Below, piece by piece: positions 39 to 45,063 of a stretch of DNA of 64,000 bases. Source of the DNA: Clostridia bacterium (lineage in GTDB: Bacteria; Bacillota; Clostridia; Christensenellales; Aristaeellaceae); assembly GCA_017460395.1 (NCBI GenBank), contig JAFUBA010000127.1:1-64000 (forward strand), read 5' to 3'. The translations under genes were made by a program, and so were the position numbers. Under the pieces are notes generated by a model. That model was not told where the DNA came from. It ran no database searches and saw only the letters and a program-made list of their open reading frames with translations. Position 1 is the stretch's first letter; each line of letters opens with the position of its first letter.

Positions 39-336
39 GAAATATGCAAATGTGCAGGCGAATCAAATAAGAATTGATTGATAGGGGATACGCTATCTTA
101 TGGCTTTCAGATGGTTGGAGGTGGGATGACTTTATAGATACTCCGGGACTTTGAATCAGTCCCATGACGGAGGATGCCAGCATACTCTTGCCGCAGCCGC
201 TCTCGCCCACGATGCCCACAATCTCGCCCGGCCTGACACTCAGATTGATATGGTTGAGTACAGGCAGCGCACCGCCCTCGGTGAACAGTTTCACTTGAAG
301 GTCATCTATGACCAGCATAGCTTCTGTGTCTTTCAC
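1..336 (-). pseudogene. 5' fragment of a DppD/OppD-type peptide ABC transporter ATPase
   Basis: A GTG start at 336 overlaps the TGA of the preceding permease gene (GTGA), with GGAGG upstream. The first roughly 66 codons are typical of a DppD/OppD ATPase: a 'gegal-pvLn' type beta strand, then the Walker A motif GESGCGKSM, then MGLIQSPG. After that point (about position 138) the normal family sequence stops. No Q-loop, LSGGQ signature or Walker B follows. The frame continues for about 45 unrelated codons of AT-rich sequence to the window edge and through a terminator hairpin. Intact family members are about 320 residues long. I read this as a gene interrupted by a deletion or insertion. The remainder, and the partner DppF, could lie beyond the window. 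Confidence 0.6.
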
Positions 337-1202
337 AGCGAACCTCCGGAATGCAGTTTTGGATCGAGCGCATCGCGCAGCCCGTCGCCCAGCATATTGA
401 AAGCCATCACCGTGATGATGATCAGAAGGCCTGGGAACAGACTGTAGTACGTGTGTGTGCGAATGTAGGTCTGAGACTCAGAGATCATGGATCCCCAGCT
501 GGCTGTGGGGATCTGCACGCCAAGGCCCAGATAGCTCAGGCTTGCCTCGGAGAGGATGGCAGAGGGGATGCCCAGCGTGATGCTGACAATCAGCATGGGC
601 ACGCAGTTCGGCAGCAGGTGCTTGAGGATAATCCGAAGGTTCCCTCCGCCGTCCGTCTTGCAGGCCTGGATATACTCCTGGTTTTTCAGCTGCATCACCG
701 TGCCGCGGATCAGGCGCGCCGTGCCCGCCCAGGACAGGATACCCAGCGACAGGTACAGGTTCAGGAGCCCTGGCCCCAGCACATTCATCAGTGCCATGGC
801 AAACAGCAGGAAGGGAAAGCTGGAAAATACCTGGATCAGAAAGGAGATCACATCGTCCACCTTGCCGCCAAAGTACCCTGCAGACACGCCCAGCAGATAT
901 CCGATGACGGAGGCGATGAGCTGAGACACAATGCCCACACTCAGGGAAATGCGGCAGCCGTAGATGCACCTCGTGAAAATATCCCGGCCCACCTCGTCCG
1001 TGCCGAACCAGTGTTCAGCGCTCGGAGTCTGCAGACGGTCCCGCAGCGACTGCAGATTGGGATCATACCGGCAGATGACCGGTGCCAGCAGCGCGAGGGC
1101 CGACAGAAGCAGCAGCACGATCACGGAGACCATGGCTACCCTGTTCTTCCGGAACAGCCGGAAGCTTTCGGAATAATAGCTCTTTTTCTTTTCTGCGCTC
1201 AT
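333..1202 (-). CDS. dppC: Peptide ABC transporter permease, DppC/OppC family
   Basis: This 289-residue inner-membrane permease forms one half of the channel of a dipeptide/oligopeptide importer. It has the family hallmarks: one N-terminal membrane helix (about residues 22-44), the HWFGTDEVGRDIFTR motif near residue 65, and an EAA loop (EYIQACKTDGG, about residues 175-185) that contacts the ATPase. Length is normal for DppC. It begins 12 bp after dppB ends, and its stop overlaps the GTG of the ATPase fragment, so the genes are translationally coupled. The substrate could be peptides or nickel. The peptide call rests on family resemblance only. Confidence 0.9.
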   Translation of the reverse strand: MSAEKKKSYYSESFRLFRKNRVAMVSVIVLLLLSALALLAPVICRYDPNLQSLRDRLQTPSAEHWFGTDEVGRDIFTRCIYGCRISLSVGIVSQLIASVIGYLLGVSAGYFGGKVDDVISFLIQVFSSFPFLLFAMALMNVLGPGLLNLYLSLGILSWAGTARLIRGTVMQLKNQEYIQACKTDGGGNLRIILKHLLPNCVPMLIVSITLGIPSAILSEASLSYLGLGVQIPTASWGSMISESQTYIRTHTYYSLFPGLLIIITVMAFNMLGDGLRDALDPKLHSGGSL

Positions 1203-1214
1203 GTGCCGCCCTCC

Positions 1215-2147
1215 CTAGTTGACATCCTTCGTCAGGCGAATATTGGGATTGATCACCGCATAGAGAATATCCACCGTAAAATAGACCACCACACAGATGA
1301 TGGCTACATAGATGACGCCGCCCTGCACCAGTGGAATATCCCTGCGGTTGATCGCATCGATCAGCATCTTGCCCACACCAGGGATATTGAAGATCTTCTC
1401 CGTAATCATCGAGCCTGTCAGGAGCGCTCCAAAATCGTTGCCCAGGATGGTGATGACCGGAATCAGCGCGTTGCGGAACACATGGACAATCGTCACGCGC
1501 AGGCGGTTCAGGCCCTTGGCGTAGCAGGTGCGGATGTAGTCCTGCCCCATCACCTCCAGCATGGAGGTTCGGGTGATGCGGGATATGGACGCCGCATATC
1601 GTGTGCCCAGTGCAAAGGCCGGCAGCACAAACCACCCCGCAGCCTTGGCGCCTGATATGGGGAACCACTTGAGCTGCAGTCCGAAATACAGCTGCAGGAG
1701 GATCGCCACCCAGAAGGATGGTGCGGAGATCCCGAACACCGAAAGGTGCATGACCAGACGGTCCACCACGCCGCCGCGGTGGGTCGCAGCGAGGATGCCG
1801 AAGGACAGTCCCAGCACCACGGCCACCACATATGCAGACACCGCAATGACCACCGTGTACGAGAAAGAAATGTGAATCAGCTCCAGCACCGGGCGGTTCT
1901 GGAAGTAGCTCGTCCCGAAATCGCCCCGCACGATACCGCCCAGCCAGGAAAAATACTGCACAGGCAGCGGGCGGTTCAGGCCCATGTTTTCGCGCAGCTG
2001 CGCAATGTTGTCCGCCGTAGCGAAATCACCCAGCATCATCGCAGCCACATCGCCGGGAATCACGTTCAGGATAATAAACGTAATCAGGGATATGCACAGC
2101 ATGATACCCAGTGCCAGCAGTGTTCTCTTCCCGATATATCTCCACAT
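1215..2147 (-). CDS. dppB: Peptide ABC transporter permease, DppB/OppB family
   Basis: This 310-residue permease is the partner of the DppC-like protein. It starts with the usual MWRYIGKR segment and a first membrane helix. It then has the periplasm-facing loop typical of OppB/DppB (NVIPGDVAAMMLGD, then the region ending NRPLPVQYF), and an EAA-type loop (about residues 195-215, ending HVFRNALIPVITIL). Length and domain order match the family. It follows dppA after a 103 bp gap that holds a large stem-loop, so it is probably expressed at a lower level than the binding protein. Confidence 0.9.
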   Translation of the reverse strand: MWRYIGKRTLLALGIMLCISLITFIILNVIPGDVAAMMLGDFATADNIAQLRENMGLNRPLPVQYFSWLGGIVRGDFGTSYFQNRPVLELIHISFSYTVVIAVSAYVVAVVLGLSFGILAATHRGGVVDRLVMHLSVFGISAPSFWVAILLQLYFGLQLKWFPISGAKAAGWFVLPAFALGTRYAASISRITRTSMLEVMGQDYIRTCYAKGLNRLRVTIVHVFRNALIPVITILGNDFGALLTGSMITEKIFNIPGVGKMLIDAINRRDIPLVQGGVIYVAIICVVVYFTVDILYAVINPNIRLTKDVN

Positions 2148-2172
2148 AAGTCCACCCTCTGGAAAACACAGT

Positions 2173-2217
2173 ACAGCCTGCGCGGTTTGGCCGTATGGCC
2201 TGACACACGCAGGCTGT
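2173..2217 (-). promoter_or_regulatory. Intercistronic stem-loop between dppA and dppB
   Basis: A perfect 10 bp stem (2173-2182 with 2208-2217) encloses a second small hairpin (GGCC...GGCC, 2189-2200). On the minus strand only short T runs follow, so it is a partial terminator or an mRNA 3'-end stabiliser for the dppA message rather than a full stop. Such structures usually make the binding protein more abundant than the permeases. Confidence 0.7.
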
Positions 2218-2250
2218 ATTGCTGTCAGTTCATGTCAGCGAAGGATCATA

Positions 2251-3840
2251 TTAATTCCCATGCACTGCTGCGGAAGCCGCTGCATCCACGTCCGTATTCC
2301 AGAAGTGGAAGATCAGGTTCGGCAGTTCAAAGCCGATGACATGGGGCTTCGCCAGATAGTTGTTCTGCGGGTAATACAGCGGGATGGCCACGTAATCCTC
2401 ACGGGAGAACAGGTAATCCGCCTGGCGGTACAGCTCTGCACGCTCGTCCTCATTCGTATTCAGACGGCCATTGTCCAGCAGCTGGTCAAACTCCTCGCTT
2501 GCGTAGAACACGCTGCGGCCCGCAGCAGCGGTGGAGTAGAAATAGGTGTAGAACTGGGAGTCGCCATCCGGGAACAGCGCGTTCCAGCTCAGGCTGGTCA
2601 CTTCAATGTTGCCGGCGGAACGGTCCGAGGTCCAGGTGGCACTGTCCACGATGCTGATGTTCAGGTTGATGCCAACCTCCTGCAGATAGCCCTGCACGGC
2701 AGTGATGGTGAGTGCATCGCCCTCACGGACTTCCGCGTTCAGGGTGATGGGCTCGGTGTAGCCAGCATCAGCCAGCAGCTGACGTGCCTGATCGGGATCA
2801 TACTCATACACGCCAAGCGAATCGTCGTGGCCGGGGATCTTGTAGTTCAGGAAGGAGGTGGCCGGGATGCCGGAGCCGTTCAGGATGGTGTCGATCAGCT
2901 CCTCGCGGTTGATCGCCAGGGAGATGGCCTTGCGCACGTTGATATCGGCCAGGTACTCGTTCTTCAGGTTCAGGTGCACGAAGTAGGTTCCCGGAGGATT
3001 GTAGGGGTGCACTTCGTCGGGATACAGGGACTGATACTGCAGCAGCTGGGACGCAGGCAGATCGGAAACGTCAATGTCACCATTCTCATAGGCCAGCAGC
3101 TTGGTATCGGCGTTGTCATAATAGATGAAGTGGATCTCGTCCAGCAGCACCTCGCCGCCATGGTAGTTCTCGTTCTTTATCAGCACAACCTCAGTGGAAT
3201 CGTCATTTTCCTTCACCTTGTAGGGACCGGTGCCAATCAGGTTTGTGCTAAGGCCCCACTGCTTGCCCGCCTCGGTGGTCGCCTTCTCGGGGAAGATGTC
3301 CGCGTAGGAGGTCGCCATATTCTTCACGAAGGGCGCAAAGGGGAACTCCAGCGTGATGTTGAAATGATAGTCATCGACCGTCTCAAAGCCGCTCAGCTCG
3401 GTAGCCTCACCCTTCAGGATCGCGGTAGAACCTTCGATCATCGTGAAGAAGGAGGTGCTGCCTGCGTGAGTGTCCGGGTTGAAGAGACGCTCGAGCGTGA
3501 ACTTTACGTCGCTGGAATGCAGTTCCGTGCCATCGGTAAAGTACACGCCCTCCTTCAGCTCGAAGGAGTACACCAGACCGTCCTCGGAGACATCCGGCAG
3601 CTTGGTGAGCAGGATGGGCTGAAGTTCGTTGTTGTCGTCAAAGCGAATCAGGGATTCTGTGACCAGGTCTGCGATGGATGCCGTGCCGGAGTTGGTGCTG
3701 ATCTGCATATCCAGCGCGGTGCCTGCATAGGCCTGTCCAAAATAGAGCACCTTGGGGAGATCTTCCGCGACTGCAGCGGAGCTGAGGAGCAGTGCGATTG
3801 TCAGCACGAGAGAAAGTGCCAAAGCCAATTTCTTATTCAT
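2251..3840 (-). CDS. dppA: Extracellular solute-binding protein family 5 (peptide ABC transporter)
   Basis: This 529-residue secreted binding protein captures peptides for the transporter encoded downstream. The start at 3840 gives a clean signal peptide (MNKK, a hydrophobic core, then SSAAVA before EDLPK). A longer in-frame start further upstream would bury that signal and is unlikely. The mature part has the family 5 pattern: the SIADLVTESLIRFDD segment, then VYSFELKEGVYFTDGTEL, and ADINVRKAISLAINREEL near the C-terminal half. There is no lipobox cysteine, so it is predicted to be released by signal peptidase I and not lipid-anchored, which is unusual for a Gram-positive binding protein. 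The leader is about 240 nt long with a small upstream reading frame. Confidence 0.92.
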   Translation of the reverse strand: MNKKLALALSLVLTIALLLSSAAVAEDLPKVLYFGQAYAGTALDMQISTNSGTASIADLVTESLIRFDDNNELQPILLTKLPDVSEDGLVYSFELKEGVYFTDGTELHSSDVKFTLERLFNPDTHAGSTSFFTMIEGSTAILKGEATELSGFETVDDYHFNITLEFPFAPFVKNMATSYADIFPEKATTEAGKQWGLSTNLIGTGPYKVKENDDSTEVVLIKNENYHGGEVLLDEIHFIYYDNADTKLLAYENGDIDVSDLPASQLLQYQSLYPDEVHPYNPPGTYFVHLNLKNEYLADINVRKAISLAINREELIDTILNGSGIPATSFLNYKIPGHDDSLGVYEYDPDQARQLLADAGYTEPITLNAEVREGDALTITAVQGYLQEVGINLNISIVDSATWTSDRSAGNIEVTSLSWNALFPDGDSQFYTYFYSTAAAGRSVFYASEEFDQLLDNGRLNTNEDERAELYRQADYLFSREDYVAIPLYYPQNNYLAKPHVIGFELPNLIFHFWNTDVDAAASAAVHGN

Positions 3841-3925
3841 TGAATGATCCTGCCTTTCATGTTGGACATTGGACCCGTGTCCTGTGGACTCAGGGTGTGA
3901 AATGATAGATATGCGGATAACAGCA

Positions 3926-4012
3926 TCACATTCGTCCACAGATACAACACCTTCGTCTAACAAAGCAAGGAACAGCCGAATGTGGTCGTGCTTCCCTGTC
4001 TGGCCAGCGCAT
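3926..4012 (-). CDS. Possible 28-residue leader peptide upstream of dppA
   Basis: An ATG at 4012 is preceded by a near-perfect AAAGGAGG ribosome site at 8 nt spacing, which is stronger than that of dppA. It opens a 28-codon frame rich in arginine and cysteine (8 Arg, 4 Cys), ending at a TGA about 85 nt before the dppA start. It lies inside the long untranslated leader implied by the promoter at 4091-4119. A regulatory leader peptide or a small secreted peptide are both possible. Nothing in its sequence is familiar, so function is open. Confidence 0.4.
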   Translation of the reverse strand: MRWPDREARPHSAVPCFVRRRCCICGRM

Positions 4013-4090
4013 AGCTTGTTCCTCCTTTCTGCAGTCAGCCGCCCGCCGGATTTTCTTTGCGGGGGACCGAACCGCTTCTTGCAGCAGTAT

Positions 4091-4119
4091 TCTATACCGC
4101 GGGAACACATATCGTCCAA
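4091..4119 (-). promoter_or_regulatory. Predicted sigma-A promoter for dppABC
   Basis: On the minus strand TTGGAC (4119-4114) is followed after 17 nt by TATAGA (4096-4091). This is the best match in the 430 bp gap between the molybdoenzyme gene and dppA. It implies a leader of about 240 nt before the dppA start. No known riboswitch fold was recognised in that leader. Confidence 0.55.
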
Positions 4120-4212
4120 TGCGAAAATTCTATGGTTCTCAAAAGGCTCTGACTATAACTCCTCTGTTCCGGATCCATGCCATGGCTCAGTACATAAGGC
4201 ATATCAATGCAC

Positions 4213-4254
4213 AAAAAAACAGGGAATACCACGGCTGTCCCGTCGGTATTCCCT
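4213..4254 (-). terminator. Intrinsic terminator of the molybdoenzyme-SGNH gene
   Basis: A perfect 10 bp stem (4221-4230 with 4245-4254) on the minus strand is followed by a run of seven T. It sits 16 bp after the stop of the fusion gene and separates it from the dpp operon. Confidence 0.9.
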
Positions 4255-4270
4255 GATATTCATTCATTCA

Positions 4271-7117
4271 TCATTCGCTGGTATACTGGCTGACCAACCG
4301 CCGCATATCGAGCGCAATCCTCGGCGCCCACCATGTTCTGTAGCCCTCCGGTGTCGGGTGGACGGGATCACGCATAAAATCATCGTAGCGGCTGCCGGGC
4401 AGGTTGTTGAAGCCCCGGTCGTTCCACAGGTCGATCACCGGGAAATGCTCCTGCTCTGCGATTTCCTTCAGGCGCTTCACCATTTGGTCGTACACATCGC
4501 TTTCAAAATGTGCGCCGGTATAGAACGCCACGGGGCAGCCAAACTTTTCCCTGCCAAGCGCGGCAACTGCCCGTATCGCTCCGCTGATCGTGTGGGTGTC
4601 TGTGTCGTCCATTTCGCCCAGGGGCATGCCCTGCCACGCATCGTTGGTGGACAGTTGACAGACAAAAAGATCCACCCCTTCTTCTGTCGGCATGCGACGG
4701 AGCCGCGCAACATAGGAGTCTTCAGAATTGTCTGCCAGCGTCGTGCCGGAGACAGCCTCCTTGACGGCAATGCAGCCATATCGCTCGGCGATATCCTCCA
4801 CAAACGATCGGCCCTCTGCGCCATAGGTCACCGATGATCCGAGGAATACGACCTTCCTGCCGCGCAGCGCATCGTCGTCAGGCATGCGCTCCACCTCCAC
4901 CAGATTGGTGTGCTGCGCGTTTCCCCGGGCATACGGCGTGGGATGCAGGGATGTCAGCGCATTGATGCTGCCCGCCGTATCCGTGCCCGTCTCGTCCGGA
5001 TGATACCACGCGCCCTGGCTGATGGCTGCAACACCGCGCATCAGCCGCTCGGATACGGTCACTGGCAGACGCATGCGTCCCCGGTCATTGTAGATGAGCG
5101 CCTCATCACCGTCATGCAGTCCGCGCGCTGCCGCATCCTCCGGATGCATCCAGATGCGCTGTGGATCCACCCTGTGCAGCTGCAGATTGTTGTCGTGCAC
5201 GCTGTGGCAGCGCCGCTTGGTGTGCCATCCGATCAGCTGCAGTGGGAAACGCCTGACCAATGGATCATCTGCGCCTTCCGGCGGAGCGACATAGCGCGGA
5301 ATGGCCGGGAAGAATTCCCTGTACTCGGTCCGATAAACCTTTTCGGAGAACAGCTCCACCTTTCCGCTGGGCGTAGGAAACGGATGCTTATGCGGATCTT
5401 CGCGCTGTGCCTGAAAGGCGATGACCTGTTTTCTGTCTTTATAGCGCCAGATACCAGCCTGCCGGAATTCATCAAACGGGGGCAGTTCCTTTTCGATCTG
5501 CCGCAGCTGACCGTAGATGTGTTCCAGCCACTGCAGCGAAGTCCGTCCCTCGGAAAACTGTGGCTCAAGCCCGAGCCGCTGTGCCAGCTCCACCAGCCAG
5601 TCATACTCCTGCCTGCTCTCCCCAAGCGGGTCGATTGCCTGATTGACATACCCCAGAAAATCACCGAAGCTCCACGGCATGGTGATATTTTCCATTTCAA
5701 ACATGGACGTGCCGGGCAGCAGGATATCCGCAAACTTCGCACTCGCAGTCATAAACAAATCAGAGCACACGATGAATTCACACTTGGAGGTATCCCGCAG
5801 AATCTCCGATGTGCGGTTGATATCACCATGCTGGTTGATGAGACAGTTGCCTGCCAGGTTGATGATCATCTTGATGTCGCTGTCCAGACAGTCCCCTCCG
5901 GTCACACCGTCCAATGAGGTGAATTCATGTCCGCGCTCCACCGCTTCTGTCCAGAGATAGCATGGGATGGCCCTTCCATATGGATTTGCCGGCTGCGGAA
6001 ATGATGGCCGGGCCTGCCTGCTGCAGGCGCCAGTGCCGCAGGCCCATCCGCCGCTGACACCCACGTTGCCCGTCATACAGGCCAGCAATATGCCGCCGCG
6101 GGCACTCTGCTCCCCATAGGCATGGCGCTGCGCACCATAGCCCTGAATCAGGGCCGCGGGCCTTGCGGTCGCGTAGCGGACCGCAAGAGATTCGATCGTC
6201 TCTGCGGGCACACCCGTGATATTCTCCGCCCATTCCGGCGTCTTTGGGATCCCGTCGCGCGTGCCCAGGAGATAGTCGAGCACGCTTTCCGTGGGATCCA
6301 CACTCTCCGGCATATGATCCCGATCAAAGCCCACACAGCACCTGTTCAGGAAATCCCAGTCGACCAGGCCGCGCTGCACAATCACCCATGCCATAGCATC
6401 CTGCAGGGCTGCATCGGTGGCAGGCCGAAGAGGAATCCACTCTGCGTCCAGGGCCAGCGCGGTATCGTTTTTCCGAGGATCCACCACGATGATGGGAATC
6501 CCTTTCTCCTTTGCCTTGCGCAGGTAGTACATTGTGTCTGAGCCGAAGTGGGTTTCCATGGGATTATGCCCCCAGAGGATGATCAGGTGGCTGTTCAGCC
6601 AGTCCTCAGGCGCATTTCCGCTCACAACCGTGCCATACATCAGGCGCGTAGCCTGGGAGATGCATGCAGTGCTGTAGGAATTGTACCGGCCAAGAAAGCC
6701 GCCATCCATCGCAAGCAGACGCATAGCCAGGTGATCTCCACGCAATACACCGCTCACGCCTGTGGCGTAATTGACGTATCGGCTGCCGGGTCCATACTGG
6801 TCGCGAATGCGGACCCATTCCGATGCAATGGTATCCAGCGCCTCATCCCATGAAATCCGCTCAAACCGGCCTTCGCCGCGCTGTCCGACGCGCTTCATCG
6901 GCCAAAGCAGCCGGTCATCGCCAAGAAACGTCTTGTGGTAGTTGAGTCCGCGCACACAGGCACACAGCGGCACACCGTCTCCGGCGTCCGCCTGGGTATC
7001 TGTCGTCAGCCTGATAATCTTTCCATCCTGCACATGCGCATGGATGATGCAGCGCCCGCCGCAGTTGTTCATACCCGTGGTATGAATCACCCGTATTTCT
7101 TCTGTGCCGGCCATCAT
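4271..7117 (-). CDS. DMSO-reductase-family molybdopterin oxidoreductase fused to a C-terminal SGNH/GDSL hydrolase
   Basis: This is a 948-residue two-part protein. Residues 1 to about 740 follow the DmsA-like plan: an N-terminal cysteine motif (C19, C23, C54), MKRVGQRGEGRFERISWDEAL, a likely Mo-ligand serine in the NSYSTA segment (around S149), NPMETHF, and a C-terminal cofactor-binding domain (IGWHTKRRCHS, WMHPEDAAARG). From residue 752 (DNA 4864 downward) comes an SGNH hydrolase of about 197 residues with block I GSSVT (nucleophile Ser), STND (block III) and DPVH (catalytic Asp/His). No twin-arginine signal is visible, so the protein is probably cytoplasmic. No DmsB or DmsC partner lies beside it. 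ATG at 7117 was chosen because AAAGGAG precedes it. The substrate is unknown. Confidence 0.85.
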   Translation of the reverse strand: MMAGTEEIRVIHTTGMNNCGGRCIIHAHVQDGKIIRLTTDTQADAGDGVPLCACVRGLNYHKTFLGDDRLLWPMKRVGQRGEGRFERISWDEALDTIASEWVRIRDQYGPGSRYVNYATGVSGVLRGDHLAMRLLAMDGGFLGRYNSYSTACISQATRLMYGTVVSGNAPEDWLNSHLIILWGHNPMETHFGSDTMYYLRKAKEKGIPIIVVDPRKNDTALALDAEWIPLRPATDAALQDAMAWVIVQRGLVDWDFLNRCCVGFDRDHMPESVDPTESVLDYLLGTRDGIPKTPEWAENITGVPAETIESLAVRYATARPAALIQGYGAQRHAYGEQSARGGILLACMTGNVGVSGGWACGTGACSRQARPSFPQPANPYGRAIPCYLWTEAVERGHEFTSLDGVTGGDCLDSDIKMIINLAGNCLINQHGDINRTSEILRDTSKCEFIVCSDLFMTASAKFADILLPGTSMFEMENITMPWSFGDFLGYVNQAIDPLGESRQEYDWLVELAQRLGLEPQFSEGRTSLQWLEHIYGQLRQIEKELPPFDEFRQAGIWRYKDRKQVIAFQAQREDPHKHPFPTPSGKVELFSEKVYRTEYREFFPAIPRYVAPPEGADDPLVRRFPLQLIGWHTKRRCHSVHDNNLQLHRVDPQRIWMHPEDAAARGLHDGDEALIYNDRGRMRLPVTVSERLMRGVAAISQGAWYHPDETGTDTAGSINALTSLHPTPYARGNAQHTNLVEVERMPDDDALRGRKVVFLGSSVTYGAEGRSFVEDIAERYGCIAVKEAVSGTTLADNSEDSYVARLRRMPTEEGVDLFVCQLSTNDAWQGMPLGEMDDTDTHTISGAIRAVAALGREKFGCPVAFYTGAHFESDVYDQMVKRLKEIAEQEHFPVIDLWNDRGFNNLPGSRYDDFMRDPVHPTPEGYRTWWAPRIALDMRRLVSQYTSE

Positions 7118-7441
7118 CTCAGCTCCTTTGCCCCATGTCATGCCCGTTCCCGGAAAGCTCTGGAAGAATCAGAGACGGTCTTCGGGCATACACGATGTTC
7201 AGCCAAAGATCCGTTCCGGATCCCTGTGATCATCAGTATACCTCAGCTGTCTGATTCCGCACAGGCCCCGGCACACTTTTCCCTTATAGTTATTTGTGAT
7301 ATCATGCGCGCCATTGCCATGAGATTCAGGGCATCTGCCCGGCTTTCGCGGCCATCCCTGTATTGCGCATGGCTTTGAAGGCAAGTTCAACGAAGGTGAC
7401 ATTCATGCCATGGCATGCAGTCACATGGAGGCTGTGTCATC
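7118..7441. other. Divergent intergenic region between the molybdoenzyme and mobA-like genes
   Basis: These 324 bases must carry the promoters for two divergent molybdenum-related genes. I see only weak -10-like elements: CTATAA on the minus strand near 7284-7289 and GATATCAT on the plus strand near 7299-7306. Neither has a good -35. No strong inverted repeat that would mark an operator was found. Confidence 0.4.
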
Positions 7442-8221
7442 ATGCTCCGGTATATTGATACCCAGGTTCAGTGGAATGGGCAAATGTGCATCCGAAGACA
7501 CTATGCAGATCCGGCAGACTGGCGCGCGGATCGCACCCGCCTGGCCGAATGGATATGCGGCATTGCCCCTGGACTGCTGCTTCTGCGCCCGGACGTGCCG
7601 GAATTCGTGCCATCTCAGACGGATGCCGCCAGCGCGAGCACCACATTGATCCTGCTTGCCGGAGGAAAGTCCCGAAGAATGGGCACAGACAAGGCACTGC
7701 TGCCTTTTTATGGCACTTCGCTTATGCACTTTCAGATGGAAAAGGCGTCCCTGCTCGGCGCACGCCTTCTGATCTCCGCCGGTGAAAACCCGGAGCGTCT
7801 GCGAAGCCAGCTTTCCCCCGGAAGAGAATCCTCTCTGGTTTCCGATGAGATCCCCGACCGCGGACCGCTCTCAGGCCTCGCCGCCTGTCTGAAGCTTGCT
7901 CAGACACCTCGGTGCCTGGTGCTTCCGGTGGACGCCCCATTTGTGCCGGCCAAAGCTTTCTGTGACCTCCTGAGCGCTCCGGAAACATCCCCCATCGTGC
8001 AGCTTTCACATCACGGTCGCATTGAATATCTCCTGGGTCGGTGGGATGCCGCGCTCTGGCAGAAAATCGAGGAGAGTATCCAGACAAAGGCAGTCTCTGT
8101 CCACGCTTTCTCCGCGCAGACCGGCGCTGCAACCTGTCCGTCAGACCTGGACGATACCTTTTTTGTGAATCTCAACCATCCATCTGACTATGAAGCCATT
8201 CTCCATGCTGAAAACAGGTAA
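7442..8221 (+). CDS. mobA: MobA-like molybdenum cofactor guanylyltransferase with an N-terminal extension
   Basis: MobA transfers GMP from GTP to molybdopterin, making the guanine dinucleotide form that DMSO-reductase-type enzymes need. The nucleotidyltransferase signature LLAGGKSRRMGTDKA lies around residues 71-85. It is followed by DRGPLSGL and the metal-binding VDAPF segment in the position of the usual VPCDxPF. The protein is 259 residues, about 60 longer than typical MobA, because roughly 66 residues precede the signature. I do not recognise this extension. The ATG at 7442 has GGAGG 10 nt upstream. It faces the molybdoenzyme gene across a divergent promoter region, which supports a shared role. 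Confidence 0.8.
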   Translation: MLRYIDTQVQWNGQMCIRRHYADPADWRADRTRLAEWICGIAPGLLLLRPDVPEFVPSQTDAASASTTLILLAGGKSRRMGTDKALLPFYGTSLMHFQMEKASLLGARLLISAGENPERLRSQLSPGRESSLVSDEIPDRGPLSGLAACLKLAQTPRCLVLPVDAPFVPAKAFCDLLSAPETSPIVQLSHHGRIEYLLGRWDAALWQKIEESIQTKAVSVHAFSAQTGAATCPSDLDDTFFVNLNHPSDYEAILHAENR

Positions 8222-44379: not shown

Positions 44380-45063
44380 TCAGTCGGCACATATGGCCGT
44401 ACCTTCAAGACATTGAGCCCAGGTATCCGCGATGGTCCTGTGCCCGGCTGCGGTCGGGTGCACCCCATCAAGGGTCTCATATTTCACGCCTGTTCCCGCA
44501 AGGTCCACGAGGGTACACCCCTCGGCCCTGCAGGCCTTCTCAATCGCCTCGTTGTAGGGTCTGAGGCCCTCCGTCCAGGCCGTATCATACATCAGCCGTG
44601 CGGCAGAGGACATGCAAGTGCCCATGAGCGTGCCGCAGAGGACCTTTGTTTCCGGAAGCATCGCCCGGATCTCCCGCAGCATCTTCCGGTAGGAAGGCGC
44701 AAAGTATCTGTCCTTCCCCCTGCCCGCGATCCCTCTTGGATGGACTGGCACCTCAAAGCCAAAGTCATTGAAACCAAGATAGATGAGCACCATCTCCGGC
44801 GAGGCATCTTCGCTCCTCAGCATGCGGATCCGATCCCCGCTCGAAGCGCTCGGGTACTGCCCCCCGGAGACCCTGCAGCCGGAGTAGGCATTGTTCACGC
44901 AAAGATCCCATTGCATCTCCTGTAAAAGGAGCTGCCACCAGATCTCTCCAGGCGCCGTGATCCCGTTCCTCTCCATGTTCTCAGCGTCATAGTAGAGGGC
45001 ATAGCCGGGCAGCTGAAAGCCATCGCATGTGCTGATGGAATCTCCGAAGATGGACACGCGCAT
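44380..45063 (-). CDS. SGNH/GDSL hydrolase
   Basis: A 227-residue cytoplasmic hydrolase without signal peptide. Block I is FGDSIST (Ser nucleophile, residues 6-12), block II glycine lies in NNAYSGCRVSGGQ, block III is LGFNDFG and block V is DGVHPTAAGH with the catalytic Asp and His. Esterase activity on an acyl or acetyl group is likely. GGAGGTGA precedes ATG at 45063, and that site directly adjoins the T run of the liv operon terminator. It leads the operon with the amidohydrolase and the VanZ fusion. Confidence 0.88.
   Translation of the reverse strand: MRVSIFGDSISTCDGFQLPGYALYYDAENMERNGITAPGEIWWQLLLQEMQWDLCVNNAYSGCRVSGGQYPSASSGDRIRMLRSEDASPEMVLIYLGFNDFGFEVPVHPRGIAGRGKDRYFAPSYRKMLREIRAMLPETKVLCGTLMGTCMSSAARLMYDTAWTEGLRPYNEAIEKACRAEGCTLVDLAGTGVKYETLDGVHPTAAGHRTIADTWAQCLEGTAICAD

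Follow-up and report, generated by a model that had tools for sequence, protein, structure and literature searches.

The locus described here raises two questions: whether a DmsA-like molybdoenzyme and an SGNH hydrolase are really joined in one clostridial protein, and how the two activities relate to each other. The earlier note on this DNA described one uninterrupted frame linking a DmsA-like catalytic subunit to a full SGNH hydrolase. It proposed that an esterase releasing or preparing the redox substrate in the same protein would be a new reaction pairing. No description of a fused DMSO-reductase-family and esterase architecture, or of its motif, was found in the literature searched. Here we describe the structure, conservation and origin of the fused gene in the window (the whole stretch of 64,000 nucleotides that was analysed) and weigh the possible relationships between its two modules.

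Layout of the frame and the reductase module

On the reverse strand the frame stays open between 7141 and 4271 (956 codons) with no stop at the domain join, and residues of the fused protein are numbered from 7141. An AAAGGAG Shine-Dalgarno (SD) sequence is located at 7123-7129, ahead of ATG ATG GCC (Met9 and Met10, at 7117 and 7114). Translation most likely starts at 7114, or else at the alternative Met9 at 7117, the limit given in the earlier note, because the Met-Ala-Gly-Thr-Glu-Glu start is common to a second species. The start MAGTEEIRVIHTTG (Met10, 7114) is shared by the fused gene and the copy in that species, locus L009. Counted from Met10, the fused coding sequence (4271-7114, reverse strand) specifies 947 amino acids.

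The DmsA/YnfE-like Mo/W-bisPGD catalytic module comprises residues 10-752 (4886-7114, reverse strand). The NCBIfam model TIGR02166 (DmsA/YnfE) matches residues 14-752 over model positions 40-793 with 867.5 bits (cut-off 777.7). Pfam PF00384 (molybdopterin oxidoreductase) and PF01568 (molybdopterin dinucleotide binding) match residues 77-521 and 634-745, both above their cut-offs. A short linker of about 10 residues follows (753-763; 4853-4885, reverse strand). It is delimited by the ends of unfused homologues, which terminate at NLVEV plus a few residues, and by the beginning of the SGNH strand at 763-767 in the whole-protein AlphaFold model. The SGNH/GDSL hydrolase module occupies residues 764-956 (4274-4852, reverse strand) and was recognised by PF13472, by invariant catalytic blocks and by Foldseek matches to SGNH esterases. 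PF13472 (Lipase_GDSL_2) matches residues 766-935 with 57.0 bits against a cut-off of 32.9 and covers profile positions 1-177 of 178. The frame, Pfam and TIGR02166 thus bear out the earlier description of a DmsA-like subunit and a full SGNH hydrolase in one uninterrupted frame.

The predicted molybdenum ligand is Ser157 (6671-6673, reverse strand), which is invariant in 17 sequences. In an alignment with the Rhodobacter sphaeroides DMSO reductase (1eu1) it falls on position 147, the established serine ligand of molybdenum, and Tyr125 falls on position 114, an active-site tyrosine. The whole-protein AlphaFold model (mean pLDDT 83.9, pTM 0.82) has H. influenzae MtsZ as its best structural match, followed by DMSO reductases; the best solved structures are MtsZ 7l5i, DMSO reductase 1dmr and TorA 9h4t. 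Because of these residue alignments and structural matches, the likeliest function is that of an S/N-oxide reductase with a predicted substrate such as methionine sulfoxide, biotin sulfoxide or DMSO, the range of such enzymes being taken from PMC10100899. BisC, like the fused protein a single catalytic subunit, is cytoplasmic (PMC10100899), as is the predicted location of the fused reductase. The fused protein differs from MtsZ, BisC, DorA and TorA, with which it shares about 28% identity, by a retained three-Cys Fe-S motif and by the SGNH tail.

The Fe-S site retains Cys27, Cys31 and Cys62 (6956-7063, reverse strand), as determined by alignment with the DmsA proteins of Bacillus and Leminorella (L021 and L027). 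The first Fe-S cysteine of DmsA is replaced by Gly23 (window 7073-7075), so that only three of the usual four cysteines are present. This glycine is found throughout the clostridial group, in which the other three cysteines are kept, in contrast to the DmsA proteins of Bacillus and Leminorella. PF04879 scores 20.3 bits on the fused protein, slightly below its cut-off of 22.7. The upstream part of the frame contains no twin-arginine motif, and the protein has no Tat leader. DmsB was absent above cut-off from the genome (a MAG that is 95% complete) and from the genes adjoining the fusion, and neither DmsC nor any other electron-transfer subunit is encoded in its neighbourhood. The fused protein is the sole PF00384 protein of the genome. 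Close clostridial relatives likewise lack a Tat leader and dmsB/dmsC, whereas the Bacillus and Leminorella proteins have the leader and both partner genes.

The DmsA-like label of the earlier note is appropriate for the type of subunit and needs correction otherwise. Likeness to DmsA, YnfE and YnfF is seen in the full-length TIGR02166 match above cut-off, the Ser-type molybdenum ligand and the Molydop_binding domain. Unlike those proteins, the fused protein has no Tat leader, DmsB/DmsC or first Fe-S cysteine, and it has an added SGNH domain. It belongs to an orphan, predicted cytoplasmic branch of DmsA and is not a DmsA of the usual respiratory kind.

A divergent neighbour encodes a MobA-like NTP transferase (7415-8221, forward strand; PF12804, 97.4 bits). 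It is kept beside the fusion in the second species (4992-5762 of L009) and is compatible with bis-MGD cofactor supply. Downstream are peptide/nickel-type ABC transporter genes (SBP_bac_5 and two permeases; 333-4119, reverse strand). The transporter is not kept in L009, and a link to the fused gene was rejected on this ground; the two are probably unrelated. Molybdenum cofactor genes are located on another contig, where MoeA, MoaC, MoaA, MOSC and MogA sit together with ModA, TatA and TatC (L140, G000:C185, 2461-10070); MoeA and MoaA were named by profile and the others by eye. At a further locus (L142, G000:C196) an aldehyde:ferredoxin oxidoreductase-like gene adjoins one for a ferredoxin-like protein that carries a twin-arginine leader; here the genome possibly encodes a second pterin enzyme and a Tat substrate.

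The SGNH module

The Ser, Asn and Asp-x-x-His motifs reported earlier are all present (Ser770, Asn833, Asp925-x-x-His928), as is Gly799. The catalytic Ser, Gly, Asn and Asp-x-x-His fall in blocks I, II, III and V, respectively. Among 17 aligned SGNH domains the invariant positions are Gly768-Ser769-Ser770, Gly799, Ser831-Thr-Asn833-Asp and Asp925-x-x-His928, with Gly-Ser-Ser standing where Gly-Asp-Ser is usual. A two-sequence AlphaFold model of the domain (mean pLDDT 69.7) matched SGNH hydrolases in Foldseek, including CE2 carbohydrate esterases, TesA and PatB. The domain is complete and, by its residues, appears catalytically competent, and it is predicted to be an esterase or deacylase.

The nearest stand-alone relative found (L087) comes from the same family and is 56% identical. 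This protein and two others with GSSVTYG (L097 and L101) are clostridial SGNH/GDSL hydrolases of similar length that share GSS, AVSGTTL, QLSTND and D-x-x-H-P with the fused domain. They differ in being separate proteins of about 190-250 amino acids, some with a predicted N-terminal anchor. In the SGNH tree the only firm grouping of the fused copies is that of the two together, and the tree does not place the donor.

Other SGNH relatives are found C-terminal to unrelated large proteins, and two adjoin GH3 and sugar-transporter-like genes (neighbours named by eye from sequence). These fusions and neighbours suit a general-purpose deacylase better than a dedicated redox partner. Two proteins of 1081 and 1232 amino acids with secretion-type N-termini (L125:4185-7430, reverse strand, and L126:3911-7609, forward strand, respectively) end in close SGNH relatives. 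Because it also forms the C-terminus of these large proteins, this type of SGNH is a mobile domain. The window contains a separate second SGNH hydrolase (44437-45048, reverse strand; PF13472, 75.5 bits).

Conservation and origin of the fusion

The same fused protein is encoded in a roe-deer rumen MAG (L009, JAFUZB010000380.1), where residues 1-952 are matched at 85% identity. The L009 coding sequence is identical to the copy in G001, a genome of the same genus as the window, and the proteins of the two species align without internal gaps. By Nei-Gojobori counts the two fused copies are separated by a dS of about 0.85. The dN/dS values are 0.086 for the DmsA part, 0.171 for the SGNH part and 0.222 for the neighbouring MobA-like gene. 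Both parts are under purifying selection; for the SGNH part, a ratio of 0.171 at this dS indicates maintenance by selection. The fusion is real, conserved and lineage-specific, and it joins two known enzyme types.

The draft genome behind the window is fragmented (247 contigs), which could suggest that two genes were joined by an assembly or sequencing artefact. The gap-free recurrence of the join in a separate public assembly of another species, at 85% identity, excludes a sequencing error near 4850-4880 and leaves the chance of any such artefact negligible. Nor were homologues found that consist of two separate genes and have lost the SGNH catalytic residues, the other outcome that the earlier note had named as refuting; the unfused relatives are without the SGNH part altogether. 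The tail could instead be a passenger acquired by chance loss of a stop codon and without an important role. The restriction of the fusion to two of nine genomes in one genus is in line with this, as is the roughly twofold faster evolution of the SGNH part relative to the DmsA part. However, a dN/dS of 0.17, with zero stops or frameshifts at a dS of about 0.85, and the retention of all catalytic residues rule out a decayed tail and make a passenger very improbable.

Wide genome searches were samples in which most genomes are drafts. Among 60 relatives searched, a close DmsA-like match was found only in G000 and G001. With the full protein as query, no other fusion was found in sets of 60, 391 and 398 genomes save the same-genus copy. 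The same held for an order-wide SGNH search of 396 genomes and for 76 GTDB loci. No other DmsA match carried an SGNH tail in about 1,270 genomes searched, mostly drafts.

The next relatives of the reductase are 51-71% identical and end near residue 752. In a phylogenetic tree the fused pair is nested, with full support, in a clade whose other proteins come from Lachnospiraceae and Oscillospiraceae and lack the tail. The fusion is derived because the pair lies within this tail-less clade. The reductase was probably acquired by horizontal transfer, as the pair is nested among proteins of those two families. An unfused adjacent dmsA-SGNH pair, considered as the ancestor, was not found in the inspected loci or in 13 genomes with close unfused DmsA homologues, none of which contained a match to the SGNH part.

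Long open frames at four loci of other Clostridia (L146, L147, L180 and L181) were considered as further SGNH fusions and proved instead to be N-terminal TorD-like fusions. The L147 protein (1513-4515, reverse strand) is DmsA-like with an N-terminal TorD/NarJ-type chaperone domain (PF02613, 81.5 bits), that is, a chaperone joined to its own client. The other three resemble it by sequence, L180 and L181 being judged by eye. These are likewise domain fusions of a clostridial DmsA-like protein, although what is added there is a chaperone at the N-terminus, whose role in maturation is obvious.

Relationship between the two activities

The best explanation, which we consider fairly probable, is that a fusion of single origin tethers a soluble cytoplasmic S/N-oxide reductase to an esterase that acts independently in the cytosol. 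A soluble, cytoplasmic member of the DmsA subfamily with a bis-MGD molybdenum cofactor would reduce S- or N-oxides, and a C-terminal SGNH esterase or deacylase would be held to it by the linker of about ten residues. The fusion would have occurred once, in the ancestor of the two species. By the route proposed, an SGNH gene would have come to lie next to that of a clostridial orphan-type reductase, and loss of the intervening stop codon would have joined the two. The SGNH part would cleave some small ester in the cytosol, possibly an acylated sugar, which is probably also what its stand-alone relatives do. The two active sites are most likely independent, which is a default reading.

Gene fusions often unite steps of one pathway. 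This general tendency, and the preservation of the fusion with both catalytic sites conserved over a dS of about 0.85, are the arguments for a coupled bifunctional enzyme in which the SGNH part would strip an acyl or ester group from a sulfoxide or N-oxide, or from the reduced form, with the molybdenum site working on that molecule too. Yet the inspected loci contain no unfused dmsA-SGNH neighbours, and the 13 genomes with unfused DmsA are devoid of an SGNH-part match. Only MobA is conserved beside the fusion, with no known pathway gene otherwise, and SGNH is a broad, often recombined domain that is also joined to unrelated proteins. Coupling is distinctly unlikely on this evidence. The new reaction pairing envisaged in the earlier note finds no backing in a conserved neighbour, an unfused pair or structural evidence linking the activities, and close unfused reductases function without a close SGNH homologue in the searched genomes.

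A different arrangement, which we regard as unlikely, is that one gene gives two products, the fused reductase and a free esterase of about 204 amino acids from an internal ribosome-binding site and start at Met753. The sequence GTGGAGGTGGAGCGCATG (4883-4900, reverse strand) is the strongest SD-like site in the gene and is followed by an ATG (Met753) exactly at the join. Its duplex energy is -10.6 kcal/mol, compared with -7.9 for the start of the gene, and in both species its pairing is the best among the in-frame start-like codons scanned. Codons 748-753 (GTG GAG GTG GAG CGC ATG) are identical in the two species. Overlaps also occur in this family, as the next gene (MobA-like) begins inside the dmsA tail in L016 and L018. 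However, the SD-like run is simply Val-Glu-Val codons, expected about 17% of the time from codon usage; the unfused L010 carries the same GTGGAGGTG; and local synonymous conservation is ordinary for the gene. The Met753 site may be a remnant or a working start of a formerly separate SGNH gene, and internal initiation giving a free esterase is a lead only. A combination of the two alternatives, with one gene encoding a bifunctional cytosolic enzyme for hydrolysis and oxo-transfer on one compound plus a free esterase started at Met753, is quite improbable.

Our preferred reading thus remains a reductase tethered to an independent esterase. If the activities were coupled after all, the fusion would offer a clue to the compound on which the orphan cytoplasmic DmsA-like branch, widespread in gut Clostridia, naturally acts. 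Even if they are uncoupled, the locus presents a clean, selected natural fusion.
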